Part shown: positions 486 through 12,374 of the stretch, piece after piece
Layout of the letters: every line of letters begins with the position of its first letter
Position numbering within the stretch: position 1 is the first letter of the stretch
NCBI GenBank assembly: GCA_022616315.1
Contig: JAKEEX010000333.1
Location: forward strand, 1 to 33,848
Reading direction: 5' to 3'
From: Myxococcaceae bacterium
Lineage (GTDB): Bacteria; Myxococcota; Myxococcia; Myxococcales; Myxococcaceae
Length of the DNA stretch: 33,848 nt
Translations under genes and position numbers: made by a program
The notes under the pieces: model-generated
The model's input: only the letters and a program-made list of their open reading frames with translations
The model's database searches: none
What the model was told of the DNA's origin: nothing

Positions 486-594
486 ACTCCCGGTGCGACA
501 CCCCGGGGAGGGGGGCTCCCCATCCTCCGTAAAGCCGGGATAGGGTCCTCAAGCAGACCAACCTGAAATGGCTTCGGGGCGGGGGGGAAGTGAC

Positions 595-1173
595 ATGGAC
601 AGGCTGTACACGACGCACGACATCAGTCACCTGCTGCAAGTAGACCCATCGACGGTGAGCAAGTGGATTGACCGCGGTATCCTCCTGGCGTTCCGGACGC
701 CGGGCGGGCACCGGCGGGTGAGGGCCGCGGACCTGCGCAGCTTCCTCATCTCGCACGAGATGCCGGTGCCCGAGGAGCTCGGCGGCGACGTCGTCCGGTT
801 GATGCTCCTGGACGGGGAGAAGCTGCTGCTGGAGCTCACGCGCAAGGCGTTCAAGGCCGTGGCGTCCAGCGTGGACCTGCACACCACCTCGTCCGCGGTG
901 GAAGCGCTGCTGCAGGTGGTGGACCTCAAGCCGCACGGCCTCGTGGTGGACCTGGGCCTGACGGAGCTGGACGCGCTGGAGCTGGTCCGCCGCCTGAAGG
1001 CACACAAGCCGCTGGAGAGCGTGAAGCTCGTCACCATGACGTCACGCCACACGCCCGAGGCGGTGGAGGCCTCGCTCAAGGCGGGTGCGGTGGCATGCCT
1101 GCCCAAGCCCCTGGATCCCGGAGCGCTGCTCGAGCTGTTCCGCGTGCCGCTGGCCATGCGACGCTCCGGCTGA
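595..1173 (+). CDS. HTH (MerR/excisionase-type) plus receiver-domain regulator
   Basis: A 192-residue cytoplasmic regulator. Residues 1-55 form a winged-helix DNA-binding domain of the MerR/excisionase kind (TTHDISHLLQVDPSTVSKWI, then RTPGGHRRVRAADL, the typical wing). Residues 66-185 resemble a response-regulator receiver: Asp73 in the acidic pocket, Asp119 as probable phospho-acceptor, Ser/Thr near 148-150 and Lys171 in LPKP. The usual second acidic-pocket residue is Gly-Glu shifted, so phosphorylation is likely but not certain. HTH first and receiver second is the reverse of most response regulators. I chose ATG 595 over ATG 568 because a purine-rich GGGGGGAAG site lies just upstream and the conserved domain begins at residue 4. 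No kinase is adjacent. The next gene follows after 3 bases, so the two are probably co-transcribed. Confidence 0.85.
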   Translation: MDRLYTTHDISHLLQVDPSTVSKWIDRGILLAFRTPGGHRRVRAADLRSFLISHEMPVPEELGGDVVRLMLLDGEKLLLELTRKAFKAVASSVDLHTTSSAVEALLQVVDLKPHGLVVDLGLTELDALELVRRLKAHKPLESVKLVTMTSRHTPEAVEASLKAGAVACLPKPLDPGALLELFRVPLAMRRSG

Positions 1174-1176
1174 GCC

Positions 1177-1935
1177 ATGCAGCCTCGCCCCAGGAGCTCA
1201 CCGCCCACGCGCAACCGCATCGCCGCCGTCCTCCTCGAGGCGGGGCTGGTGACGCGGGAGCAGCTGCTCACCGCGCTCCAGCAGCAGGAGCACTGGGGAG
1301 GCCGCCTCACGCGCCAGATCGAGGAGCTGGGCTACGCCACCGAGGAGGCGATGACCGCCGCGGTGGAGCGGGGCCTGCGCATCCCGCGTCTCCGCCTCGC
1401 GACGGTGACGCCCACGGCGGCGGCGCTGTCCCGCGTGGACGCGGAGCTCGCCGAGGCCCGCGGGGTGCTCCCGGTGGCCTTCCAGGACGGCGGGCGTACG
1501 CTGCTGCTCGCCATGGCGGACCCGACGGACGTGGCCACCATGGACGAGGTGGCGCGTCGCTCGCAGACGCGGGTGCAGCCTGCCGTCGTGGGGGACCGGG
1601 AGGTGGAGGCCGCCATCCTGCGCCACTACCACGGCGTGGATGCCGCGCCGGCGCCCTCTGCAGCGGGGCCCGACGGCGTGACGGAGAAGCTGGACGTCGC
1701 TCCGGACCTGCTGGGGGCCAGCGCGCGGGCGGACAGTGCCGCGAACCTGCTGGAGGAGCTGCTCACGGGCGAGGCCACGCAGCCGGGCACCCTCACGGCC
1801 GAGGAGCAGCACCGGCTCGCGCTGCTGAAGCAGAACCAGGTGCGCAGCGGTCGGGTGCTGCGTGCGCTGCTCGAGCTGCTCGTGGAGAAGGGCGTGCTGA
1901 CGCAGGCGGCGCTCGCCGCGCGTCTACGCGGGTAA
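1177..1935 (+). CDS. Stand-alone MshEN (GspE/PilB N-terminal) domain protein
   Basis: A 252-residue protein that looks like the N-terminal domain of type II secretion or type IV pilus ATPases (GspE, PilB, MshE) without any ATPase part: there is no Walker A motif. Residues 14-37 (RIAAVLLEAGLVTREQLLTA, then LQQQ) and 43-65 match the repeated 24-residue MshEN motif that binds cyclic di-GMP in MshE and PilB, although the usual Gly of RLG is Ala or Thr here. Residues 85-145 form the alpha/beta part with AMADPTDVATMDEV, typical of the family. A further motif-like segment ends the protein (about 226-250). The start is 3 bases after the stop of the HTH-receiver gene and has no strong Shine-Dalgarno site, suggesting translational coupling. 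Role unknown; a cyclic di-GMP-responsive adaptor is an inference. Confidence 0.8.
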   Translation: MQPRPRSSPPTRNRIAAVLLEAGLVTREQLLTALQQQEHWGGRLTRQIEELGYATEEAMTAAVERGLRIPRLRLATVTPTAAALSRVDAELAEARGVLPVAFQDGGRTLLLAMADPTDVATMDEVARRSQTRVQPAVVGDREVEAAILRHYHGVDAAPAPSAAGPDGVTEKLDVAPDLLGASARADSAANLLEELLTGEATQPGTLTAEEQHRLALLKQNQVRSGRVLRALLELLVEKGVLTQAALAARLRG

Positions 1936-1942
1936 TGGGACG

Positions 1943-4765
1943 TCACCCGGCATCCCGCACCACGGGACTCTCCGGCGCATCCGGCGGCCGCGACACCCAC
2001 GCCGCGATGAACAGGTCCAGCTCGCCCCGCAGCACGTCCTTGAGGCGTGGCGTCCCCGCGCCGGTGCGGGGGTCCTCCACGTGCGGCGCACGGCCCACGT
2101 GGTAGCGGCGCGCCTCGGTCACGGGCGCACCCCCGCCGGCGAGCACCACCTGGGCCACCTCCTCCAGCTCGCGCACCACCTCACCGCCGAGCAGGGAGAG
2201 CAGCCGCCCGCTGCTCTCGTCGCGAAGCGTCACCTCGCACCCCACCCGGGGCAGGAAGCTGCCCACGTGGCGGCGCACCTCGCGAGCCCCCACGACGGCA
2301 CCCACGGCAGCGTGGGGCACGGCGCGATGGACACGCACGTAGGCCCGCACCCTCGAGCTCTCGGCGATGCGCCGGTGGAGCCCGGTCTCCCCCTTGAGGA
2401 ACCCGAAGGCACCGGGCCCCGTCACCCGGAGCACCACACGCGGTGGCTGCTGGCCCTCGGCCAGGGGCACCGCCTGGTAGCCACGGCGGGCGGCCCACGC
2501 CGAGTACATCGCGGCGAGCTCCGCCAGCCACGTGGTGTCCGCCGGGGTGACGTCCGCGGTCCACAGGTCCATCAGGGCCTCGTCGTCCGCCTCCGCGGTT
2601 CCGGAGGCCACGCGGGCCTCGGCGAGCTGGATGTCCCGGGCCGCCTCCTCCACCTGCCGCGCCGCGCCCTTGAGCTGCGCCTCGCCGCGCGCCTCGCGCA
2701 CCAGCTTGCGCGCGAACTGGCAGGTGCTCGCGAGCCGGTCCAGCTCGCTGAGCTGCGCCTCCACCTGACGGAACGCGCGCAGCGTCGCGGCTGCCCTCTC
2801 CGGCGCATCCCAGAGGTCCGGCGCCTGGGTCGCCTGCAGGAGGTCCGCGCGCCGCTTCTCCAGCTCCGGCCTGTGCGCCGTGCGCGCCACCCTCTCTACC
2901 CGGCGCACCAGCGCGTCCGTCTCCTCGAGGAGGGACCGCCTGTCCAGCCTTCGCTTCACCGCGGTGGCGCGGGCGCTCGGGAGCGTGAGCTGCGCGGTGG
3001 CCTCGCGGGGCGCGAGCGGCTCGGCCACGGCCACCACGCGCCCGCCCGTCCTCGCCTCCACGCGCACCGGCGTCCCCGGCGGGAGCGGGCGCCGGGCAAT
3101 CTCCACTGCCAGCGCCGCGGTGAGCGACTTCTCGATCTCACGCTGCAGGTAGCGCGCGCCGAACTCGGGCGAGTAGCCGCGGTCCACGAGGAGGTCCAGC
3201 ACCGCGGGGGACACCTCCACGTCCAGGGCACGTGCCCGGATGCCCTCACGCTCGAGCACCCGGCCCACCTCGCGCTGGGCGATGCGGCGAATCTCCACCT
3301 TGCTGAGCGGCTGGAAGTGGCACACCGCATCGAAGCGGTTTAGGAACTCGTGGCGGAAGGCCGCGGTGATGCGGCGGTCCACCTCGTGCACCAGCTCCGC
3401 CGTGGAGCGCACGCCGGCGAAGCCCACCACCTTCTCGCGGTAGACCTCCGCGCCCACATTGGACGTGGCCACGATGAGGGTGTTGCTGCAGGAGACGGTC
3501 TCCCCGGCGGCGTTGACGAAGCGCCCCTCGTCGAACAGCTGCAGGAAGCGGTCGTGGACGCTGCGGGCCGCCTTCTCGAACTCGTCGAGCAGCAGGACGG
3601 AGAACACCTTTCCGTCCAGGAGCCGCGTCAGCTCGCCCCTCTTGGCCTCGAGCGTGGCCGCCCAGGGCGCGCCGAAGGGGAGCGCCTCGTCGCCGTCGCT
3701 CGCGTAGTCCGCCATGTTGAGGCGCACCAGCCGGTCCCCGCTGCCGAAGAGGTACTCGGCCAGGAGCTTCGCCAGGTGCGTCTTGCCCACGCCGGTGGGG
3801 CCCGCGAAGAGGAACACGCCGAGCGGCCGCCTCGGATCGTTGAGTCCGGCCTTGAGCAGGGCCACCGCGCGCAGCACCGCGGACACCGCGTCGGTCTGGC
3901 CAAGGATGCGCTCGCCGAAGAGGCGCTCCACCTCGTCGAGCTCGAGCGGCATCGCGTCGTCCACGAGGAAGCGGGGCAGGCGCGTGGCGGCGCAGAAGCG
4001 GGCGAGGACGTCCTCGGGCCCCACCCTGTCGCGGCTGGCGGCGGCCGCCTCGCTCGCCGTCTCCTGGAGGAGCTCGATGGCCTTGCGCGGCAGGCGCCGG
4101 GCCAGGAGGAACCGCGAGGAGAGCCGCAGCGCGAGGTCGCAGGCCAGCGGGTCGATGGGCAGCCGGAGCTCCCGCTCGAGCTGCTCGGCCACGCGCCCGA
4201 GGATCCACCGCGCCTTCTCCGGGGTGGGCTCGGGCACGGGGATGACGTGTAGCCGCTCGGCGAGCGCCTCGTCCGCGCGCTGCAGCTCCTGCACACGCTG
4301 CTGCTCGGCCTCGAAGATGAAGCGCAGCGCGCCGGTGCGCATGGCGCGCAGGAGCACGGGGGCAAGGGGCCCCTCGAGGCTCGCGGTCAGGTCGCGCACG
4401 TACACCACGGCGCCTGGCGCCCGCGCGAGCGACTGGAAGAGCTCCTCGAGCACCTCGGGTGCGTGGCGCTGGCCCTGCGCGAGGATGGAGAGGGCGCTCA
4501 CCTCCACGAGCCGCATGCCCGCGAGCGCCGCGTCCACGCGCCCCTCGGCGAGGCGCCGCGCCACCTCCTGGACGAGCGCGGTCTTGCCCACGCCCGGCTC
4601 TCCGGCGAGGAGCGGGTGCTTGCCCCCGCGTGCCAGGAGCGCGAGCACCTCGGTCACCACCGCGTCCGCGCCGTGGGCCTCCGGCAGGCGGCCCTCGCGC
4701 GCGAGCGCCGTGAGGTCCCGGTCGACGTATCGCTCTCCCTGCTCGGCTCCGTTCTTCCTCGCCAT
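1943..4765 (-). CDS. ClpA/ClpC-like double AAA+ ATPase fused to a degenerate release factor 2 fold
   Basis: One uninterrupted 940-residue frame. Residues 13-560 are a Clp/Hsp100 double ATPase without the Clp N-domain and without the ClpB middle domain. D1 has Walker A GEPGVGKT (55-62), but its Walker B is changed to VVYVRD (120-125, consensus hhhhDE). D2 has GPTGVGKT (322-329), LLLDE (391-395), arginine finger Arg477 and sensor-2 Arg538, so it looks active. VGF at 447-449 sits where ClpC has its ClpP-docking loop. Residues about 600-925 follow bacterial RF2 (PrfB): PDLWDAPERA (649-658), AMYSAWAARRGY (752-763), KGETGLHR (791-798), and a C-terminal tail with EDPRTGAGTPRLKDVLRGEL (897-916). SPF and GGQ are both missing. 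ATG 4765 was chosen because the AAA+ homology starts at once; the frame is open further upstream. The stop lies 7 bases from a convergent gene. Confidence 0.9.
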   Translation of the reverse strand: MARKNGAEQGERYVDRDLTALAREGRLPEAHGADAVVTEVLALLARGGKHPLLAGEPGVGKTALVQEVARRLAEGRVDAALAGMRLVEVSALSILAQGQRHAPEVLEELFQSLARAPGAVVYVRDLTASLEGPLAPVLLRAMRTGALRFIFEAEQQRVQELQRADEALAERLHVIPVPEPTPEKARWILGRVAEQLERELRLPIDPLACDLALRLSSRFLLARRLPRKAIELLQETASEAAAASRDRVGPEDVLARFCAATRLPRFLVDDAMPLELDEVERLFGERILGQTDAVSAVLRAVALLKAGLNDPRRPLGVFLFAGPTGVGKTHLAKLLAEYLFGSGDRLVRLNMADYASDGDEALPFGAPWAATLEAKRGELTRLLDGKVFSVLLLDEFEKAARSVHDRFLQLFDEGRFVNAAGETVSCSNTLIVATSNVGAEVYREKVVGFAGVRSTAELVHEVDRRITAAFRHEFLNRFDAVCHFQPLSKVEIRRIAQREVGRVLEREGIRARALDVEVSPAVLDLLVDRGYSPEFGARYLQREIEKSLTAALAVEIARRPLPPGTPVRVEARTGGRVVAVAEPLAPREATAQLTLPSARATAVKRRLDRRSLLEETDALVRRVERVARTAHRPELEKRRADLLQATQAPDLWDAPERAAATLRAFRQVEAQLSELDRLASTCQFARKLVREARGEAQLKGAARQVEEAARDIQLAEARVASGTAEADDEALMDLWTADVTPADTTWLAELAAMYSAWAARRGYQAVPLAEGQQPPRVVLRVTGPGAFGFLKGETGLHRRIAESSRVRAYVRVHRAVPHAAVGAVVGAREVRRHVGSFLPRVGCEVTLRDESSGRLLSLLGGEVVRELEEVAQVVLAGGGAPVTEARRYHVGRAPHVEDPRTGAGTPRLKDVLRGELDLFIAAWVSRPPDAPESPVVRDAG

Positions 4766-4806
4766 GGCGCCCGCCACTCTACCAGCGGGCCCCGCCCACC
4801 GCCGCG

Positions 4807-5268
4807 CTACAGGAACCGCTTCCGCGTCCCGAGGATCCAGTCGAACAGGGGGAAGGTGACGCACCAGTTGGCGTTCTGGTCCACGCCCATGTGGTGCTCG
4901 TAGTGCCACGGCAGGTGCACGCGGGCCCACGCCGGGTCCAGGTGGGCCTTCTTGTGCAGCCGGTGGTAGCGCCACATGCTGAACCACACCGCGCTGACGA
5001 AGTACGGAATCCGCTTCAGGACGGGCAGCCACACCGCGGCCCCGAGGAGCAGGGCCAGCGCCTCCTTGGACTGCGCGTCCCACGCCTTGACGAGCGGGTG
5101 GGTGTAGGCAGGGTCCAGCATCGCGTTGCGGCGGACGGCGTTGTGGTGCTCGTTCCAGTGGAACGCCCAGACGGAGTCCTTCGAGCGGCCCAGCCCGTGG
5201 AGCATGTACCTGTGGATGGCCCACTCCCCTGCGTTCGAAGCGAGCAGGCCCAGCGGGAAGCCAACCAT
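4807..5268 (-). CDS. Membrane fatty acid hydroxylase / sterol desaturase superfamily protein
   Basis: A 153-residue protein of the di-iron fatty acid hydroxylase superfamily, which uses O2 to hydroxylate or desaturate lipid substrates at the membrane. The histidine ligand clusters are all visible: H19-x4-H24 (HRYMLH), H37-x3-HH41-42 (HWNEHH), H102/H105/H109 (HRLHKKAH) and H122-x2-HH125-126 (HYEHH). Two hydrophobic stretches (about 3-16 and 70-97) would be membrane segments. It is short for the family but complete: the frame has a stop just upstream and no other start codon before ATG 5268, which is preceded by GGAGGAGG. It ends 41 bases before the AAA+/RF2 fusion on the same strand, so the two may share a transcript. 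Substrate unknown; carotenoid hydroxylases have the same motifs. Confidence 0.8.
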   Translation of the reverse strand: MVGFPLGLLASNAGEWAIHRYMLHGLGRSKDSVWAFHWNEHHNAVRRNAMLDPAYTHPLVKAWDAQSKEALALLLGAAVWLPVLKRIPYFVSAVWFSMWRYHRLHKKAHLDPAWARVHLPWHYEHHMGVDQNANWCVTFPLFDWILGTRKRFL

Positions 5269-5472
5269 GTCCTCCTCCAGCGGCTCCGACGGACGCCGCG
5301 GGTCGGGCGCACTTCACTCCCAATATCTTCAGCCCTAGCCCCGGAGGCCAGGGCTCCAGCTGTCATGTCAGGAACCCGGCGGCTCCGCCGTCCAGCTCTC
5401 CATGTCACGCGGAGGGCGCCTGCGCATGCCGTGCTACCGTCAAATGGACTTTCGATTTCACCCTCCCTTTCG

Positions 5473-6138
5473 ATGCCCGTGGCTCCCCTCCCCCAGACGG
5501 ATGACGCCTTGTTCTCGGCCATCTTCGCCCGGCGTGCGGCCGGGGAGCCGGTGGGCGCTCTGCTCGGCGAGCTGTGCGAGCGATGGCGCCGGCCCGCGGC
5601 CTACGTCATCGGGAAGGTCCAGGCCTCCTACGGTCGGGGTGCGTCCGCGGACGTGGACGAGCTCTACCAGGACGCCGTGGGCAAGCTCCTCGACCGCGGG
5701 CTCGAGCAGTTCCGCGGCCTCTCCGAGCGGCACCCCGGGCGCGCGGCGAGTCCGAGGACGTTCTTCCTGCGCATCGTCAAGCACGTCACCATCGACTTCT
5801 ACAGGCGGCAGCGCGAGGACCTCGTCGACACGGCGACGGAAGGTGCTGCAGCGGAGGAGCCACCCGGCAACGCGGCGCGCTCGATGGCCCGTGCACACCA
5901 GCTCGAGGCCGCACGCGACGCGAGAGACGTCTACCGCGCGGCCTTCCGGCGCCTGACGCAGGAGCACCCGAAGGAGGCGGCGGCGTGGGACCTGTATCAC
6001 CACGAGGACGTGGAGGACCATGAGGAATGTGCACGGCGTCTGAACATCTCGGTGGTGAACTCGTACAAGCGCGTCAGCCGCGCGCAGGCGTACCTGAAGG
6101 CGTACCTCCTCGAGCTGCGCGACCGGGGCGAGCTGTGA
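5473..6138 (+). CDS. ECF-type RNA polymerase sigma factor
   Basis: A 221-residue sigma70-family protein with only regions 2 and 4. Region 2 spans about residues 40-115: ADVDELYQDAVGKLLDRGLE, then PRTFFLRIVKHVTIDFYRRQ, the usual pattern for the core-binding helix and the -10 recognition helix. Region 4 spans about 150-212 and ends with a helix-turn-helix (ECARRLNISVVNSYKRVSRA). The linker (118-140) is Ala/Glu-rich. ATG 5473 was picked because conserved sequence begins soon after; an in-frame GTG at 5431 would add 14 residues. The next gene, 28 bases downstream on the same strand, carries anti-sigma-type zinc motifs, so the two probably form a sigma/anti-sigma pair. Target promoters are unknown. 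Confidence 0.85.
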   Translation: MPVAPLPQTDDALFSAIFARRAAGEPVGALLGELCERWRRPAAYVIGKVQASYGRGASADVDELYQDAVGKLLDRGLEQFRGLSERHPGRAASPRTFFLRIVKHVTIDFYRRQREDLVDTATEGAAAEEPPGNAARSMARAHQLEAARDARDVYRAAFRRLTQEHPKEAAAWDLYHHEDVEDHEECARRLNISVVNSYKRVSRAQAYLKAYLLELRDRGEL

Positions 6139-6166
6139 CCGCGCTCCACATGCGGAGGCGACGCCC

Positions 6167-7381
6167 GTGAGCACCCCGGATGCGTTCATCGCACGCTACC
6201 GGAGGCTGAAGGCGGAGCTGCCCGCGCTCGAGGCAGCCGCCTCGAAGAGCTGGAGAGACACGGGAGCTCTCCTGGAAGCAGCGGGCGCGGTGCTGCGCCG
6301 GCACGAGCACCTGGGCGCAGTGGGTGAGGTGGACCCGGCGCTGCGCACCCTTCCCCGTGAATCCGTGCAGGCCTGGCTCGGTGCTCTCTCCGAGCGTGCG
6401 CTGGCCGAGGCCCTCCGACATGCGGAGGAAGACGGGCTCGAGGCCGCGCTCGCGGACTCGCCCGAGGAGAGCGAGCTCCACGTCGCCGAGGTGATGGGAG
6501 CGCTGTACGCGAGGGACGCCCTGCAGTCGCAGGCCTCTGCCCTCGCGCGCTGGGAGATTCTCGCCGGGGACGACGCGGGGCCGCTGACGGAGCGCCTGTC
6601 GGAGCAGCTCCTGTCGCTCGATGCGTCGCACCGTGGGCAGGCCCGGCTCTTCGTGGCGGCCAACCCCCGACGTCGTGCGGAGCGGGACACGCTGGATGTG
6701 GCGGAGCGGGCGCAGGCCTGGTGGTTCACCGCGCGCGCGGAGTGCGACGGCCTGGTTGCCGCGCTGGCCGGGAGAAGGGACGCACTCGGGGCTCACCTCG
6801 ACGTCTGCCTCGAGTGCCTGGAGGACCTGGAGAACGCCAGCCTCGTGGAAGCACCGCTGCCTCAGCACCTGGATGAGGACGCCCTCTGGGCGCTGGACAT
6901 GGGGACGGCCTCTCCCGGCGAGCGTGCACGGTGGACGGCGCATGCGGGGCACTGCTCTGCGTGTGGCGCTGCGCTCGAGGCGCTCTCACTCGGGGACGAG
7001 GCCATCGACGATGCTCTCGCGGAAGAGGCCGAGGCCCCCCCACGCCAGGCCGCGCGAAGCTCCACGAGGTCGACTCGCGCTCCCGGATCTGCACGTCGGC
7101 CGGATCGCGAAGTGCTCGAGCAGAGTGGCGACTTCCGCCTTCTCCTCATCCGTGAGCGTGGAACCGTGCGCCTTCAGGTCCAGCCTCTGCGCTCCGCCGC
7201 GGTCGCTTCAGCGCTCGTGTTCCTGCCGCCAGGCAGGAGTCCCATCCGCCCGAGGAACACTCCCGAAGGGATGGACTTCGCGCTCGGCGACGAAGCAGGG
7301 CTGCGTCATCACGTCGTCGCGGTCCGCCTCGAGCTGTCCGGCACTGGCGAAGTCTATCAGCGCGAGTTCCTTCTCGAATGA
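6167..7381 (+). CDS. Putative soluble anti-sigma protein with two zinc-binding (ZAS-like) motifs
   Basis: A 404-residue protein with no signal peptide or membrane segment. Residues 236-271 look like a zf-HC2/ZAS domain: an acidic helix (DEDALWALDMGTASPGERAR) leading to H259-x3-C263-x2-C266. A second H-x3-C-x2-C motif lies 49 residues earlier at H210, C214 and C217. The N-terminal 200 residues are helical and Ala/Glu-rich, unlike anything I can name. The segment 280-315 is low complexity (Pro/Arg/Ser), and the last 90 residues seem to form a beta-rich domain. The GTG start at 6167 has GGAGGCG upstream. Placement 28 bases after the ECF sigma gene suggests it binds that sigma factor in the cytoplasm. 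Redox or metal sensing through the Cys motifs is possible but unproven. Confidence 0.65.
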   Translation: MSTPDAFIARYRRLKAELPALEAAASKSWRDTGALLEAAGAVLRRHEHLGAVGEVDPALRTLPRESVQAWLGALSERALAEALRHAEEDGLEAALADSPEESELHVAEVMGALYARDALQSQASALARWEILAGDDAGPLTERLSEQLLSLDASHRGQARLFVAANPRRRAERDTLDVAERAQAWWFTARAECDGLVAALAGRRDALGAHLDVCLECLEDLENASLVEAPLPQHLDEDALWALDMGTASPGERARWTAHAGHCSACGAALEALSLGDEAIDDALAEEAEAPPRQAARSSTRSTRAPGSARRPDREVLEQSGDFRLLLIRERGTVRLQVQPLRSAAVASALVFLPPGRSPIRPRNTPEGMDFALGDEAGLRHHVVAVRLELSGTGEVYQREFLLE

Positions 7382-7954
7382 GCCACACATGGAAGTTGAA
7401 GAACAGCGCCTCGAAGCGTGGACTGGCGGGTGCACGGGCTTCGCGCTCGGGCGACACGGCGACTCGGTTGGCTCCTGGAGGGACGGAGGGCTGAAGGGCC
7501 TCCGGCCTCTCCCACCCAGACAGCCCCCGTTCTCCCGCAGCCCTCCAACGCCGCGTGCGAAGGCACACGCCCCCGGGGTACCGCCACGGCAGGGACCGCC
7601 CCGGGAGCGCTCCCCGGGCTTACTGCGGAGGACCCCTGGATTCGCAGCAAGCGGCGCCGCGCGCCTCGGCCCACCGCCTTCGTTCCCCCAGAACACATCG
7701 GGGTCACGAATCACTCGGGAAGCGCGCGTGCGCGCGCTCCGCGAGTTGAACGGACCTCCTCCACTCGGGTGCATCGTCGCCTTCGCCCCTGTGTGCATCC
7801 TCACCCTGCCCCCTCTCGCACCGGAAGACGGCTCGGCGGCCCGTCTGCCGAGCAGCCGTTCATCCTCTGTGCGCTGCACGGCTCGCCTCCACCTCTCACC
7901 TTGCCCCGCAGAGCGGGAGCGCCGCGCCCCCGCCGAGAGCAGGTGGGGGGCTTC
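7382..7954. other. 573-base region without a convincing gene
   Basis: Frames through this stretch are open only because of the GC content; their translations are Pro/Arg/Ala-rich without domain-like pattern. I see no tRNA or clear promoter. A perfect 12-base palindrome GGGAGCGCTCCC lies at 7603-7614 inside a slightly longer GC-rich dyad, with no T tract after it. The region presumably holds the end of the sigma operon and the promoter of the protease gene. Confidence 0.5.
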
Positions 7955-8686
7955 ATGCGACGCACGACGGTGCAGCGGCTCTGGGCGGTCCTCCTGACAT
8001 GCCTCGCACTCGCGTGCGCACGCACCGAGCTCCCGCCCGACGCTTCGGACACCGAGCACATCCTGCGCGAAGCCACGGTGACGCTCATGCCTCTGCGCTG
8101 CGCGGGCGTCGTGGTGGGCGCGGGCGACCGCGTGGTGACCGCCGCGCACTGCCTGGACCCACGGGAGACACGCGTCCCCCTCCAGCTCTCCGACGGGCGC
8201 CGCGTGGAGGCCGAGGCCCTCGTCGTGGACCGGGCACGCGACGTCGCGGTGCTCGGACTGGACGCGCCCGTGACAGCACGTCCCCTCATCCTCGCGGATG
8301 CGCTCCCTGCCCCTGGACAGCCGCTCCTCTTCGCAGGCCGGAACGACCGTCGCTCGGGCCTGCAGTCGGCCGTCGTCGAGCGCCTCGGCCGCTGCCCCTC
8401 CTTGCCGGGCGTGCCGCTGGCGCTCTTCACCTCGCTGAATGGACAGAAGGGGGACTCCGGCGCGCCCCTCGTGGGTCCGGACCTGAAGGTGCTCGGGCTC
8501 GTCCACGGAGGCGCGCGCTGCAACATCGCCACGCCCGTCACGGGTGCGGCGGACCTGCTCGCGGAAGGGGAGGTCCGCTGGGCCCAACGACACGCCCCGG
8601 GCAACACGGGCGTCGGCGGCTCGGGGCTCCCACCTCCGGACGCGGTGACGGTCCCCCCGAACACCAGCGCCCTCGATTCACGCTGA
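7955..8686 (+). CDS. Trypsin-like serine protease lipoprotein
   Basis: A 243-residue secreted protease of the chymotrypsin/trypsin fold (S1 family). The N-terminus is a lipoprotein signal: positive MRRTTVQR, a hydrophobic stretch and lipobox LALAC, so Cys21 would be lipidated. The catalytic triad is complete: His65 in TAAHC, Asp96 in RDVAVLGLD and Ser168 in GDSGAP. Cys50 and Cys66 may pair, and Cys147 with Cys189. The last 35 residues are Pro/Gly-rich and probably unstructured. ATG 7955 has GGTGGGGGG just upstream and starts exactly at the signal peptide; the open frame extends further left but with no protein-like pattern. The stop lies 7 bases from the convergent PilZ-receiver gene. Natural substrate unknown. 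Confidence 0.85.
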   Translation: MRRTTVQRLWAVLLTCLALACARTELPPDASDTEHILREATVTLMPLRCAGVVVGAGDRVVTAAHCLDPRETRVPLQLSDGRRVEAEALVVDRARDVAVLGLDAPVTARPLILADALPAPGQPLLFAGRNDRRSGLQSAVVERLGRCPSLPGVPLALFTSLNGQKGDSGAPLVGPDLKVLGLVHGGARCNIATPVTGAADLLAEGEVRWAQRHAPGNTGVGGSGLPPPDAVTVPPNTSALDSR

Positions 8687-8693
8687 TGCGGCC

Positions 8694-9452
8694 TCAGTGA
8701 ATGCGGAGCAGCTGCTTCACCGTCTCCAGCACCTCGACGAACTTCACCGGCTTGCGCAGGTACATGTCCACGCCGAGCGCCATGGCCCGCTCCTGCGCGT
8801 CCATGCCCCCCGCGGAGATGACCACCACGGGAATCCCCTGCAGCGACTTCTCCTCGCGGATCCTCTCCACCAGCGCGAACCCGTCCATCACCGGCATGTA
8901 CAGGTCCGTCATCACCAGGTGGAAGCGGCGCTCGCGCAGCTGCAGCAGCGCCGCGTGGCCGTCCTGCGCGAAGTGCACCTGGAGCGGCACCTTCCCCGCG
9001 AGCTCGCCCTGCGCCAGCTTCTTCAGGACGTAGCTGTACATCTCGATGATGTGCGGGTTGTCCTCGACGATGAGCACCCGGAACCCCTCCGCGGGGGCAG
9101 GTGCGACCGGGCGGGCAGGCGACTCGCTGGTAACGGAGCTCAAGAGGGCATCCAACCTTCTGCGGTCATCGACGCCATCGGCCCGGATGCCCACGCCCGG
9201 TCGCTCGGTGGCCGAGGCCGGCCGCACCCAGGTGACGGTCCCGGAGACTTGTACCGGATCCAGCAACCCCGGGAAAGAAAGCGCCAGCACCACCCGCTCG
9301 CCCATGGAGAAGGGGCGCTCGGTCTGCAGGAACAGGCCCTCCCTGGACAGATTTTCGGTGGCTGCCAGCCACCGCGCCCGGTCCGGGAAGTCCACCCGCA
9401 ACACGAACGGCACCCGTGCGCTCGCGCGCTTCTCGTCGGGCGGGTTGGTCAT
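8694..9452 (-). CDS. PilZ domain plus response-regulator receiver protein
   Basis: A 252-residue protein with an N-terminal PilZ domain and a C-terminal receiver. PilZ (about residues 8-105) has both halves of the cyclic di-GMP site: R9-x3-R13 (RASAR) and N34-x-S36-x2-G39 (NLSREG), so binding is likely. The receiver (about 124-250) has Glu130-Asp131 in the acidic pocket, phospho-acceptor Asp183 in MTDLYMPVMDG, Ser213 and Lys234 in LRKP. There is no output domain, so it probably signals by protein contact. Myxobacteria have many PilZ-receiver proteins linked to motility and polysaccharide, but nothing here names the partner. ATG 9452 begins right before the PilZ motif; an upstream in-frame TTG (9524) would overlap the promoter region of nuoE. 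Transcribed divergently from nuoE. Confidence 0.88.
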   Translation of the reverse strand: MTNPPDEKRASARVPFVLRVDFPDRARWLAATENLSREGLFLQTERPFSMGERVVLALSFPGLLDPVQVSGTVTWVRPASATERPGVGIRADGVDDRRRLDALLSSVTSESPARPVAPAPAEGFRVLIVEDNPHIIEMYSYVLKKLAQGELAGKVPLQVHFAQDGHAALLQLRERRFHLVMTDLYMPVMDGFALVERIREEKSLQGIPVVVISAGGMDAQERAMALGVDMYLRKPVKFVEVLETVKQLLRIH

Positions 9453-9517
9453 AGAAACGCTGGAAATCTCAGGGGAAACCGCTCGATGGGCAGGCAGTCT
9501 ACCGGGAGGACTTTTCG

Positions 9518-9545
9518 TTGACAATCAGCGGATCCGGGCCATACA
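9518..9545 (+). promoter_or_regulatory. Possible sigma70-type promoter of nuoE
   Basis: A perfect -35 hexamer TTGACA (9518-9523) is followed after 16 bases by CATACA (9540-9545), a poor -10. Predicted initiation would fall almost at the ribosome binding site, giving a very short leader, which weakens the call. Confidence 0.3.
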
Positions 9546-9553
9546 AGCCCGGA
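9533..9553 (+). promoter_or_regulatory. Inverted repeat overlapping the nuoE ribosome binding site
   Basis: TCCGGGC (9533-9539) and GCCCGGA (9547-9553) form a perfect 7-base-pair stem with a 7-base loop. The right arm covers the first bases of GGAAAG (9551-9556), the Shine-Dalgarno of nuoE. It could be an operator or an RNA hairpin that masks the start site. Confidence 0.4.
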
Positions 9554-9559
9554 AAGCCT

Positions 9560-10051
9560 ATGGCCGAACCCCTCTTCACGCCTGAGCAGCAGAAGACGTT
9601 CGACACCGAACTGGCAGAGATCCTCACCCATTACCCGCCCGACAGGAAGAGCGCCGCCATGCTGCCCGCGGTGCGGCTGCTGCAATCCCTCAAGGGGTGG
9701 TGCCCCCCCGAGGGACTGACCCTGGTGGCGGAGCGGCTCGGGGTGACGAAGGAGCGCGCCTACGAGGTCGCGAGCTTCTACGTCATGTACCACCTGAAGA
9801 AGCCGGGGAAGTACGTGGTGGACGTGTGCACCAACCTCTCCTGCTCCCTGCGCGGCGCCGAGTCCCTGCTCGGCTACCTGGAGGACAAGCTGGGGGTGCA
9901 CGCGGGCGAGTCCACCGAGCAGTGGACCCTGCGCGAGACGGAGTGCCTCGCCTCGTGCGGCACCGCCCCCTGCCTGCAGATCAACGAGGACCACTTCGAG
10001 AACCTCACCAGCCGCGAGAAGGTGGACGCCGTCTTCGCCAAGTTGAAGTAG
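9560..10051 (+). CDS. nuoE: NADH-quinone oxidoreductase subunit E
   Basis: A 163-residue subunit of respiratory complex I (24-kDa/NuoE family, thioredoxin-like fold) that carries the [2Fe-2S] cluster N1a in the peripheral arm next to the NADH site. The ligands are Cys90, Cys95 (CTNLSC), Cys129 and Cys133 (CLASC), with family spacing. VASFYVMYHLKKPGKYVVDV just before the cluster is typical. Length matches E. coli NuoE. ATG 9560 is preceded by GGAAAG; an upstream TTG frame extension has no homology. First gene of a co-directional block E-F-J-K-L-M-N. The gap to nuoF is 73 bases and contains GC-rich dyads. Confidence 0.97.
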   Translation: MAEPLFTPEQQKTFDTELAEILTHYPPDRKSAAMLPAVRLLQSLKGWCPPEGLTLVAERLGVTKERAYEVASFYVMYHLKKPGKYVVDVCTNLSCSLRGAESLLGYLEDKLGVHAGESTEQWTLRETECLASCGTAPCLQINEDHFENLTSREKVDAVFAKLK

Positions 10052-10124
10052 GCCCCCTGGACGAGGGCCTGCCAGAAGCGCCCGGCCCTCACGGAAGAGG
10101 CGGGCGCCCCCGTTGGACGCCCCT

Positions 10125-11464
10125 ATGACTTCACCTGCAGCCCCCGCAGTCGAGAAGGTCATCTCCAGGGCGTGGGGAACGCCCCACTCCCACACGCTGG
10201 CCGAGTACAGGAAGCGCGGCGGCTACGAGGCCCTGAAGAAGGCCCTCGAGATGGCGCCCCAGGCCGTCCTGGAGGAGGTGAAGAAGAGCAACCTCCGTGG
10301 CCGTGGCGGCGCCGGCTTCCCCACCGGCATGAAGTGGAGCTTCGTCCCGAAGGACAGCCCCAAGCCCAAGTACCTCGCCGTCAACGGGGACGAGAGCGAG
10401 CCGGGCACCTTCAAGGACCGCTACATCCTCGAGGAGGACCCGCACCTGATGCTCGAGGGCATCGCCATCGCGGCGTGGGCCCTCGACGTGCACACCTGCT
10501 ACGTCTACCTGCGCGGCGAGTTCAAGTTCGCCGCACAGAGGCTGCAGGCCGCCATCGACGAGGCGTACCGCGAGGGCATCTTCGGCAAGAAGATGCTGGG
10601 CAAGGACTTCGAGCTCAACGTGTGGCTCGTGCGCGGTGCGGGCGCCTACATCTGCGGCGAGGAGACGGCGCTGCTCGAGTCGCTCGAGGGCAAGAAGGGC
10701 TGGCCCCGCCTCAAGCCCCCCTTCCCCGCGGTGGTGGGCCTCTTCGGCTGCCCCACGGTGGTCAACAACGTGGAGACGCTCGCGAGCGTGCCCCCCATCT
10801 TCCAGCGGGGCGCGGACTGGTACGCGAAGCTCGGCACGGAGAAGTCCGGCGGCACGCGGCTCATCTGCCTCTCCGGCAGCGTCAACCGCCCGGGCGTCTA
10901 CGAGATCAGCATGGCCACCACCCTGCGCCAGCTCATCGAGGACCCGGACCTGGGCGGCGGGATGCCCGCGGGCCGCAAGGTGAAGGCGGTCATCCCCGGT
11001 GGCTCCTCGGCCCCGGTGCTCGCCGCGGACGAGCTGGACGTGGCGCTCGAGTTCGAGGCGCTCAAGGTAAAGCAGACCATGGCCGGCTCGGGCGGCGTCA
11101 TCGTCATGGATGACCGCACGTGCATGGTGCGCAGCCTCTGGCGCGTGGCGCGCTTCTACGCCGAGGAGTCCTGCGGCCAGTGCACGCCCTGCCGCGAGGG
11201 CACGCCGTGGCAGACCCGGCTGCTCCGCAAGATCGAGGAGGGCCGCGGGGAGCCCGAGGACCTGGAGATGCTGCTCAACGTGGCGACCTCCATCGCGCCC
11301 TACCCGCCCATCGGCCTCGGCACCACCATCTGCGCGCTCGGGGACGCGGCGGCGCTCCCGGTGCACTCCTTCGTCGCGCGGTTCCGGGCCGAGTTCGAGG
11401 CCCACATCCACGAGAAGCGCTGCCCGTTCGGCGACAGGCCGTGGGGGCACTTTGGAGACTGGGC

Positions 11465-11468
<4 letters not shown>
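10125..11468 (+). CDS. nuoF: NADH-quinone oxidoreductase subunit F (NADH-binding)
   Basis: A 447-residue flavoprotein subunit of complex I that oxidises NADH with FMN and passes electrons to cluster N3. The nucleotide/FMN site is clear: GRGGAGFPTG (59-68), VNGDESEPGTFKDR (86-99) and GAGAYICGEETALLESLEG (171-189). The [4Fe-4S] ligands are Cys350, Cys353, Cys356 (SCGQCTPC) and Cys403 (ICALGD). Length is normal. ATG 10125 is chosen over an in-frame TTG 12 bases earlier. The stop overlaps the nuoJ start by ATGA, so the catalytic subunit is coupled to the membrane arm. nuoG, which normally follows nuoF, is not here. Confidence 0.97.
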
Positions 11469-11974
<506 letters not shown>

Positions 11975-12071
11975 CCCCCCGGTGGAGTCGCATGGGGGCT
12001 TGGGACTAGCCTGTCCCTACAGAGCGCACCCCCGAAGACTCCCACGTCCTCCCACACGAGCAACGACATCC

Positions 12072-12374
12072 ATGGTTCCCACGAGCAACTACCTGCTGCT
12101 GGCGGCCGCCCTCTTCTGCATGGGCATGCTCGGCGTGCTGGTGCGCCGCAACGCGCTGGTGGTGTTCATGTGCGTGGAGCTGATGCTCAACGCCTCGAAC
12201 CTCACCTTCCTGGCCTTCGCGCGGCACCGGGGTGACATGACCGGCCACATCTCCGCGTTCTTCGTCATCGCGGTGGCGGCGGCGGAGGCGGCCATCGGAC
12301 TGGCCATCGTCATCGCCGTGTTCCGCAGCCGGGGCACGCTCAACGTGGACGACATCCGCACCATGCGACACTGA
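12072..12374 (+). CDS. nuoK: NADH-quinone oxidoreductase subunit K
   Basis: A 100-residue proton-channel subunit (ND4L homologue) with three transmembrane helices (about 5-24, 29-49, 60-85). The two conserved membrane glutamates are visible: one in [15 protein letters not shown] (around residue 36) and one in [19 protein letters not shown] (around residue 72). Length equals the E. coli protein. ATG 12072 is the only start that gives the normal N-terminus [18 protein letters not shown]. It sits between nuoJ and nuoL, as in most bacterial nuo operons. Confidence 0.95.

Follow-up and report, generated by a model that had tools for sequence, protein, structure and literature searches.

The stretch of Myxococcaceae DNA analysed here (contig JAKEEX010000333.1 of assembly GCA_022616315.1; all 33,848 nucleotides are referred to as the window) contains a gene in which a Clp-type ATPase with two AAA+ domains, D1 and D2, is joined in one chain to a C-terminal region that has the fold of release factor 2 (RF2). 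The RF2-like region has kept the parts by which RF2 docks on the ribosome and has lost those used for decoding and peptide hydrolysis. The most coherent reading of the fusion is that it would place an unfoldase on the ribosome. We tentatively propose, as a reading that is quite possible, a Clp motor docked on the ribosome, which may deliver substrates to ClpP and would work in the manner of Cdc48-Vms1.

The gene is a single open reading frame at the position given by the original prediction (Table 1), and it lies on the minus strand, which had been left unstated. In Pfam, the 940-residue protein matched AAA (residues 52–126) and AAA_2 (313–480; E = 1e-34), followed by ClpB_D2-small (487–569) and PCRF (636–798; E = 2e-11); in NCBIfam, ClpA spanned residues 9–569 and prfB residues 619–800 (E = 9e-19). 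Both collections return a Clp-type AAA+ protein followed by PCRF/prfB, and the double AAA+ module, predicted at residues 13–560, is confirmed by the AAA, AAA_2, ClpB_D2-small and ClpA matches. The scores fall far below the NCBIfam cut-offs for true members, ClpA and ClpB included; for prfB, the fusion reaches 68 bits against a cut-off of 370. The ClpA-type N-domain (Clp_N) was not among the best 25 Pfam matches, and the Clp module starts directly at D1; because D1 begins at about residue 13, there is no room for Clp_N. A Foldseek search with a full-length AlphaFold2 model yielded mostly ClpC–ClpP assemblies as best matches.

A profile of 34 homologous C-termini covered Escherichia coli RF2 nearly end to end (residues 31–359; E = 1.4e-23) and scored 86 bits against RF2, whereas RF1 reached 52 bits, which argues for RF2 ancestry, not RF1. 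An AlphaFold2 model of residues 596–940 had a mean predicted local distance difference test score of 76.6, with unreliable coordinates for the last ~40 residues. The top PDB matches of this model in Foldseek were all RF2 (5mdw, 8p16 and 1gqe; E = 4e-13 to 5e-13, probability 1.00), and the best global superposition was obtained with 1gqe, the crystal structure of the free, compact form of RF2 (template-modelling score of 0.60). The region at residues 600–925 is thus predicted to adopt the RF2 fold. The likeness to RF2 that had been claimed along the whole length of the region holds for the fold, as seen by both the profile and the structural searches, and breaks down for the working motifs SPF and GGQ.

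RF2 reads stop codons through its SPF loop and the tip of helix α5, and releases the peptide through its GGQ motif. When conservation was scored across 42 homologues of the fusion, the SPF loop was a gap in 42/42 and GGQ occupied the catalytic position in 0/42, the lone GGQ string being located in the linker of one homologue (L103). The GAGGT(E/D) tip is lost as well, and both α7, the long helix past domain 3, and the switch loop are shortened. The retained motifs comprise P.(L/F)W in domain 1, MY...WA.(R/K)RG, G..A(F/Y)GFL.GE.G.HR and the C-terminal DxRTG; in the core of domain 2/4, 12 of the 20 RF2-universal positions carry the same residue. Mean pairwise identity is 0.42 in the domain-3 remnant, as opposed to 0.58 and 0.78 in the RF parts on either side of it; the higher of these values belongs to the domain 2/4 C-terminal segment, in which 19 of 42 positions are invariant. 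Judged by its motifs, the RF2 part is a pseudo-release factor, predicted to be unable to decode or to hydrolyse, a point missed in the original prediction.

The motor motifs were aligned with those of the host's own ClpA, ClpC-like protein and ClpB. In addition to the changes in its Walker B motif (Table 1), D1 has lost the sensor 1 threonine and the KYR pore loop, retains a single arginine finger of the RR pair and has a shortened pore-2 loop. D1 is degenerate, and it probably does no more than bind nucleotide. D2 is the most conserved region of the protein, with 162 of 296 positions invariant among 16 diverse homologues. Its sensor 1 is invariant in 42/42 homologues, as are the ATPase motifs listed in Table 1, and by these motifs D2 appears to be catalytically competent. 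Clp proteins dock ClpP through GF/GL loops, and a [MLIV]GF tripeptide is found in 42/42 homologues of the fusion; the host's own ClpB is without it. In the D2 pore loop, FGxxW stands in place of GYVG. The pore-1 loops of ClpA are KYR in D1 and GYVG in D2, and the tyrosine of GYVG grips the substrate (PMC9663308). The Clp identity stands, but the loss of the canonical pore loops weakens the case for a canonical threading unfoldase. D2 is probably a working motor suited to ClpP, with a grip that would differ from that of ClpA, if it threads substrates at all.

Table 1. Coordinates of the fusion gene, its domains and motifs in the window, and of the related Clp-like trio (last line; positions within locus L141).
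Feature	Protein residues	Position	Strand	Remarks
Whole gene, AAA+(D1-D2)-pseudo-RF2 fusion		1943..4765	minus	940 residues; ATG at 4765, stop at 1943-1945
D1 AAA+ domain	13-250	4016..4729	minus	degenerate in catalytic site and pore loops; retains Walker A
D1 Walker A, GEPGVGKT	55-62	4580..4603	minus	Gly, Val, Gly and Lys invariant in 42 homologues
D1 degenerate Walker B, VVYVRDL	120-126	4388..4408	minus	canonical FIDEIH; Asp to Arg in 41/42, Glu to Asp in 42/42
D2 AAA+ domain with ClpB_D2-small	276-571	3053..3940	minus	intact ATPase motifs
D2 Walker A, GPTGVGKT	322-329	3779..3802	minus	invariant, 42/42
D2 pore-1 loop region, FGAPWAATLEAKRGEL	364-379	3629..3676	minus	GYVG replaced; Trp368 invariant
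D2 Walker B, VLLLDEFE	390-397	3575..3598	minus	invariant, 42/42
ClpP-docking-type loop, VGF	447-449	3419..3427	minus	aligned with LGF of host ClpA
D2 arginine-finger segment, EFLNRF	473-478	3332..3349	minus	invariant, 42/42
D2 sensor 2, GAR	536-538	3152..3160	minus	invariant, 42/42
RF2-like domain	609-925	1991..2941	minus	PCRF/prfB matches; profile match E 1.4e-23; RF2 fold
RF2 domain-1 equivalent, helical	609-722	2600..2941	minus	RF2 signature APDLWD
RF2 domain 2, first part	727-806	2348..2587	minus	retains MY.xWA.RRG and GPG..GFL.GE.G.HRR; without GGTE tip and SPF loop
RF2 domain-3 remnant	807-883	2117..2347	minus	least conserved part
Lost catalytic GGQ position, VGS	834-836	2258..2266	minus	xGx in 42/42 homologues
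RF2 domain 2/4 C-terminal segment, ARRYHVGRAPHVEDPRTGAGTPRLKDVLRGELDLFIAAW	884-925	1991..2116	minus	most conserved RF2-like part
Clp-like trio, L141 (G104:C1:1936001-1950500)		12344..8931, 8927..5544, 5878..3248	minus	1138, 1128 and 877 residues

The fusion is not confined to the window. In a search of 145 genomes of the order, nearly all Myxococcaceae, several with single-contig genomes, were found to carry it as one frame with ~60–72% identity, as does G137, a member of a neighbouring family; the relatives are fused, not split, so the frame does not consist of two separate genes joined by error. Among 195 genomes of the phylum, the RF2-like domain was detected at ≥470 bits in 83 (a few of these copies being cut by contig ends) and true RF2s scored ≤91 bits; there is no overlap between the two classes. 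A scan beyond Myxococcota, which used single-sequence patterns, returned mostly true RF2s. In close pairs, the ratio of nonsynonymous to synonymous substitution was ~0.05 for the AAA+ part and 0.07–0.10 for the RF2-like part; wider pairs are near synonymous saturation, and only close pairs are therefore informative. On these ratios, both halves of the fusion are under purifying selection. Candidate origins from a phage or plasmid were rejected, since matches there were partial, of <60% identity and, where annotated, ordinary RF2; a defence system was likewise rejected, the PADLOC matches being generic AAA+.

G109 has a single frameshift at the AAA+/RF2 junction near residue 600 (L105, G109:C1, ~7137-7141), which lies by a short C run at this C/G-rich junction and is either a sequencing error or a fresh mutation. 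The copy in G087 (L099, G087:C77, ~6129-7281) is decayed: the whole AAA+ region is deleted, and the first ~20 residues are followed almost directly by the linker and RF2-like sequence in other frames. The RF2-like stretch of G087 is still open and 49% identical. It was rejected as a stand-alone gene, since the N-terminal MARK...ERDLTELARAG just upstream in another frame identifies it as a remnant.

Apart from the fusion, the host genome encodes RF1 and RF2 as well as a third RF-1-family protein; a Pfam RF-1 search of this genome gave no match at the fusion locus. That the fusion might be the cell's own RF2 was rejected, as a normal 368-residue RF2 with SPF and GGQ is present. Given normal RF1 and RF2 proteins, the fusion is a paralogue with another job. 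The genome also encodes two ClpPs in addition to ClpA, ClpB and the ClpC-like protein, and a sub-threshold tmRNA match in it proved on checking to be tRNA-Ala. As a separate observation, Myxococcaceae encode an RqcH-like NFACT_N protein (G000:C590:137-1108 and relatives); they therefore probably have bacterial ribosome quality control, in which the fusion could take part.

Paralogues with 34–36% identity, found in the search of the order, led to a tandem trio of Clp-like genes in G104 (Table 1). The first protein of the trio, of 1138 residues, has a diverged RF2-like C-terminus from which domain 3 is entirely removed. In profile–profile comparisons this tail matched RF2 with P = 1.9e-11 and the RF2-like domain of the window with P = 2e-10; the middle gene (1128 residues), compared likewise, shows no such tail (hhalign P = 0.23). 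The 1138-residue protein occurs in seven Myxococcota genera, two of them from other families (G155 and G160), and prfB is detected directly in the trio-type proteins of these two (8e-5 and 4.5e-4). All three trio proteins have a double AAA+ module with the GF loop present and the GYVG loop absent. The same trio is present at L174, L176, L178 and L179 and, in part, at L172, L175 and L177. A further form, of 1196 residues, was found in Chloroflexota, in an Anaerolineae metagenome-assembled genome (JAHBVK010000012.1; L037:3472-7059, plus strand). Its C-terminus matches prfB at E = 8.8e-24 and is without GGQ and SPF; no second trio-like Clp gene was found in the examined DNA around it. The GF loop is present in the second-family proteins, the Chloroflexota form included. 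In an alignment of all forms the common retained skeleton consists of domain 1, FGFL..E.G.HR and DLRTG, with SPF gone, and in an unrooted tree, built with no outgroup, each of the two fusion families forms a solid group.

The trio is laid out alike in three ~9 Mb genomes of genus g19, where a further Clp gene is located several kb past its end, as the tag number of MXAN_4832 would predict; this yields a gene-order match to MXAN_4823-4825 of Myxococcus xanthus. The trio is probably this operon, although matched by gene order and not by locus tag. MXAN_4823-4825, a three-gene operon of Clp ATP-binding subunits, was reported to be upregulated by 3.57, 2.67 and 2.61 log2 units in one chloramphenicol condition and by 1.47–2.17 log2 units in another, and MXAN_4832 (clpC) by 1.19 log2 units under chloramphenicol (PMC6617876). 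The trio is flanked on both sides by additional ClpB-like genes at distances of up to ~10 kb (L180-L181 in G118; L184-L185 in G103), making the region a cluster of Clp ATPases.

RF2 binds the L11 stalk through its domain 1 and places its domain 2 in the decoding centre (PMC5378476). We propose that the pseudo-RF2 would dock at the ribosomal A site and the L11 stalk, whatever the codon and without cutting peptidyl-tRNA, and so carry the AAA+ ring to translation complexes that are stalled or damaged. There, D2 would pull on a ribosome-bound protein or the nascent chain, perhaps gripping it with the invariant Trp368 instead of GYVG, and the pulled substrate may pass to ClpP. A-site binding is suggested by the retained domains 1 and 2/4, and binding to ClpP by the GF loop. 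As part of the same tentative proposal, the fusion can be described as a Clp/Hsp100-type ATPase that has, in place of the usual N-terminal adaptor domain, a catalytically dead copy of RF2 at its C-terminus for substrate targeting, and that would be, in function, a single-chain bacterial equivalent of Cdc48 acting together with Vms1. Three observations support placement on the ribosome: the retained RF2 parts (domain 1 and the core of domain 2/4) are those that dock on the ribosome, with decoding and hydrolysis lost; a second AAA+-pseudo-RF2 family displays the same pattern; and the Clp operon matched by gene order is induced by a ribosome-stalling drug (PMC6617876). A shade more tentative is the wider view that the single-gene form of Myxococcaceae, the operon form of Myxococcota and the Chloroflexota form constitute a superfamily of Clp-type motors that dock via a dead RF2, remodel or clear stalled complexes and pass substrates to ClpP. 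If true, bacteria would possess an unfoldase pathway anchored on the ribosome, as a parallel to the Cdc48-dependent ribosome quality control of eukaryotes. Of the interpretation offered originally, the fusion itself, its Clp identity, the RF2 fold and a possible link to ClpP through the GF loop have stood; the loss of decoding and hydrolysis, the state of D1 and the altered pore loops had escaped notice.

Several findings weigh against the ribosome-docked motor. Both rings are without the pore-1 tyrosines and the pore-2 loop of D1 is shortened, so canonical threading is doubtful. The loss of the SPF and switch loops is accompanied by that of several RF2 residues close to the decoding centre, and the RF2-like part evolves at roughly twice the rate of the motor. 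The chloramphenicol induction concerns the sister operon, matched by gene order, and not the gene of the window. Finally, no translation-linked gene is a conserved neighbour of the fusion, and none of its neighbours is conserved across genera; gene context therefore gives no functional clue.

The main alternative, which we consider rather unlikely, is that the RF2-like domain works off the ribosome, as a substrate-recognition, adaptor or ring-assembly domain that replaces the missing N-domain and serves ordinary protein substrates. The absence of a ClpA-type N-domain fits this, as do the loss of codon-reading and catalytic residues, the decay of domain 3, the faster evolution of the RF part and the missing genomic link to translation genes. 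However, one and the same set of RF2 elements (domain 1, the core with FGFL.GE.G.HR and the DLRTG segment) has survived in the distant lineages Myxococcaceae, other Myxococcota and Chloroflexota; such sparing of the ribosome-docking parts would be unexpected were ribosome binding irrelevant. The apparent chloramphenicol response of the sister operon (PMC6617876) also speaks against this alternative. Improbable in our view is an A-site occupancy or competition factor, similar to Dom34 or to hibernation factors, in which the dead RF2 acts by blocking or marking the A site, the role of the AAA+ part being limited to removal of the factor or a bound partner, with no degradation. Catalytically dead release-factor homologues that act on stalled ribosomes are known in Dom34 and have been proposed for the baeRF-1 families (PMC6514570), and the degenerate pore loops would suit such a factor, but the [VLIM]GF tripeptide, invariant in 42/42 homologues, would be useless in it because docking to ClpP is not needed. 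Slightly less probable still is a pseudo-motor, a scaffold or sensor of translation stress in which ATP binding by D1 and slow cycling of D2 switch six RF2-like arms without any pulling. A D1 that lacks catalytic residues, sensor 1 and both pore loops, together with a D2 that lacks GYVG, would be compatible with it; the invariance of all D2 catalytic residues, the status of D2 as the most conserved region and the invariant tryptophan in the pore loop speak against it. An assembly chimera or a frame read-through joining two genes, for which the origin of the window from a single metagenome-assembled genome in 912 contigs, the junction frameshift of G109 and the decayed copy of G087 might be cited, can be dismissed, because the one-frame fusion is conserved in nearly all Myxococcaceae searched, single-contig genomes included, and in another family, and because sister fusions exist.

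Stalled ribosomes in bacteria are rescued by tmRNA, ArfA/ArfB, BrfA, PrfH and RqcH, and to our knowledge none of the bacterial rescue systems includes a ribosome-tethered Clp motor. The fusion resembles ClpA and ClpC in the D1-D2 order of its double AAA+ module, its best solved structural matches, its intact D2 ATPase site and its [VLIM]GF loop, which aligns with the LGF/IGL loop of ClpA; it differs from them in lacking the N-domain and the D1 Walker B, sensor 1 and pore loops, in the change from GYVG to FGxxW and in the added 330-residue RF2-like C-terminus. With RF2 (prfB) it shares the fold, the domain order, the N-terminal P.(L/F)W signature and the C-terminal DxRTG...FI segment, whereas the SPF loop, the GGTE tip and GGQ are absent, α7 and the switch loop are cut and a motor is attached. 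Vms1, a release-factor-like protein, works with the AAA+ protein Cdc48 in ribosome quality control (PMC5989216), and Vms1/ANKZF1 with Cdc48/p97 likewise brings a release-factor-like module and an AAA+ unfoldase together at stalled ribosomes (PMC5989216, PMC6514570), the role that the fusion is proposed to have. Vms1, however, has an eRF1 fold of the RNase H type, keeps its catalytic glutamine and is bound by Cdc48 non-covalently; the fusion has the bacterial RF2 fold and no glutamine at the motif. Vms1-Cdc48 may be regarded as the closest working analogy, convergent and without common ancestry.

Other systems share single aspects with the fusion. ArfA and BrfA recruit RF2 to stalled ribosomes independently of the codon, but they use an active RF2 with its GGQ and no motor (PMC5378476, PMC6881298). 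PrfH/RFH is a bacterial release-factor paralogue whose presumed task is at damaged ribosomes; it has no domain 1, retains the catalytic domain and is paired with RtcB (PMC6514570), whereas the fusion keeps domain 1 and has lost catalysis. Dom34/Pelota is a release-factor homologue with a dead catalytic site that acts on stalled ribosomes, but it belongs to the eRF1-fold family, has the GTPase Hbs1 as partner and carries no fused AAA+ module. We found no description of an AAA+-RF2 fusion in the open-access literature; the word 'Clp' is absent from the main survey of release-factor evolution (PMC6514570), and the report of the chloramphenicol-induced Clp operon does not mention a release-factor domain (PMC6617876). 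Both halves of the fusion belong to known families; if ribosome docking holds, the system would be of a kind undescribed in bacteria. The protein would also be a clear example of a translation factor repurposed for targeting, found in two families and in two phyla, and the pseudo-RF2 may explain the strong chloramphenicol induction of the three-gene Clp operon. Whether bacteria pull on stalled ribosomes as eukaryotic Cdc48 does is a question that can be tested in M. xanthus DK1622.

The fusion gene has ordinary neighbours in the window. They are the genes of a response-regulator/HTH protein, an MshEN-domain protein and a fatty-acid hydroxylase; NADH dehydrogenase genes are found at a greater distance. 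The response-regulator gene encodes a protein with HTH_17 and a response-regulator receiver domain (568-1170, plus strand) and is directly followed by that of the MshEN-domain protein (1177-1932, plus strand). The latter is without the usual ATPase, and its stand-alone pairing with an HTH_17/receiver protein is unusual.

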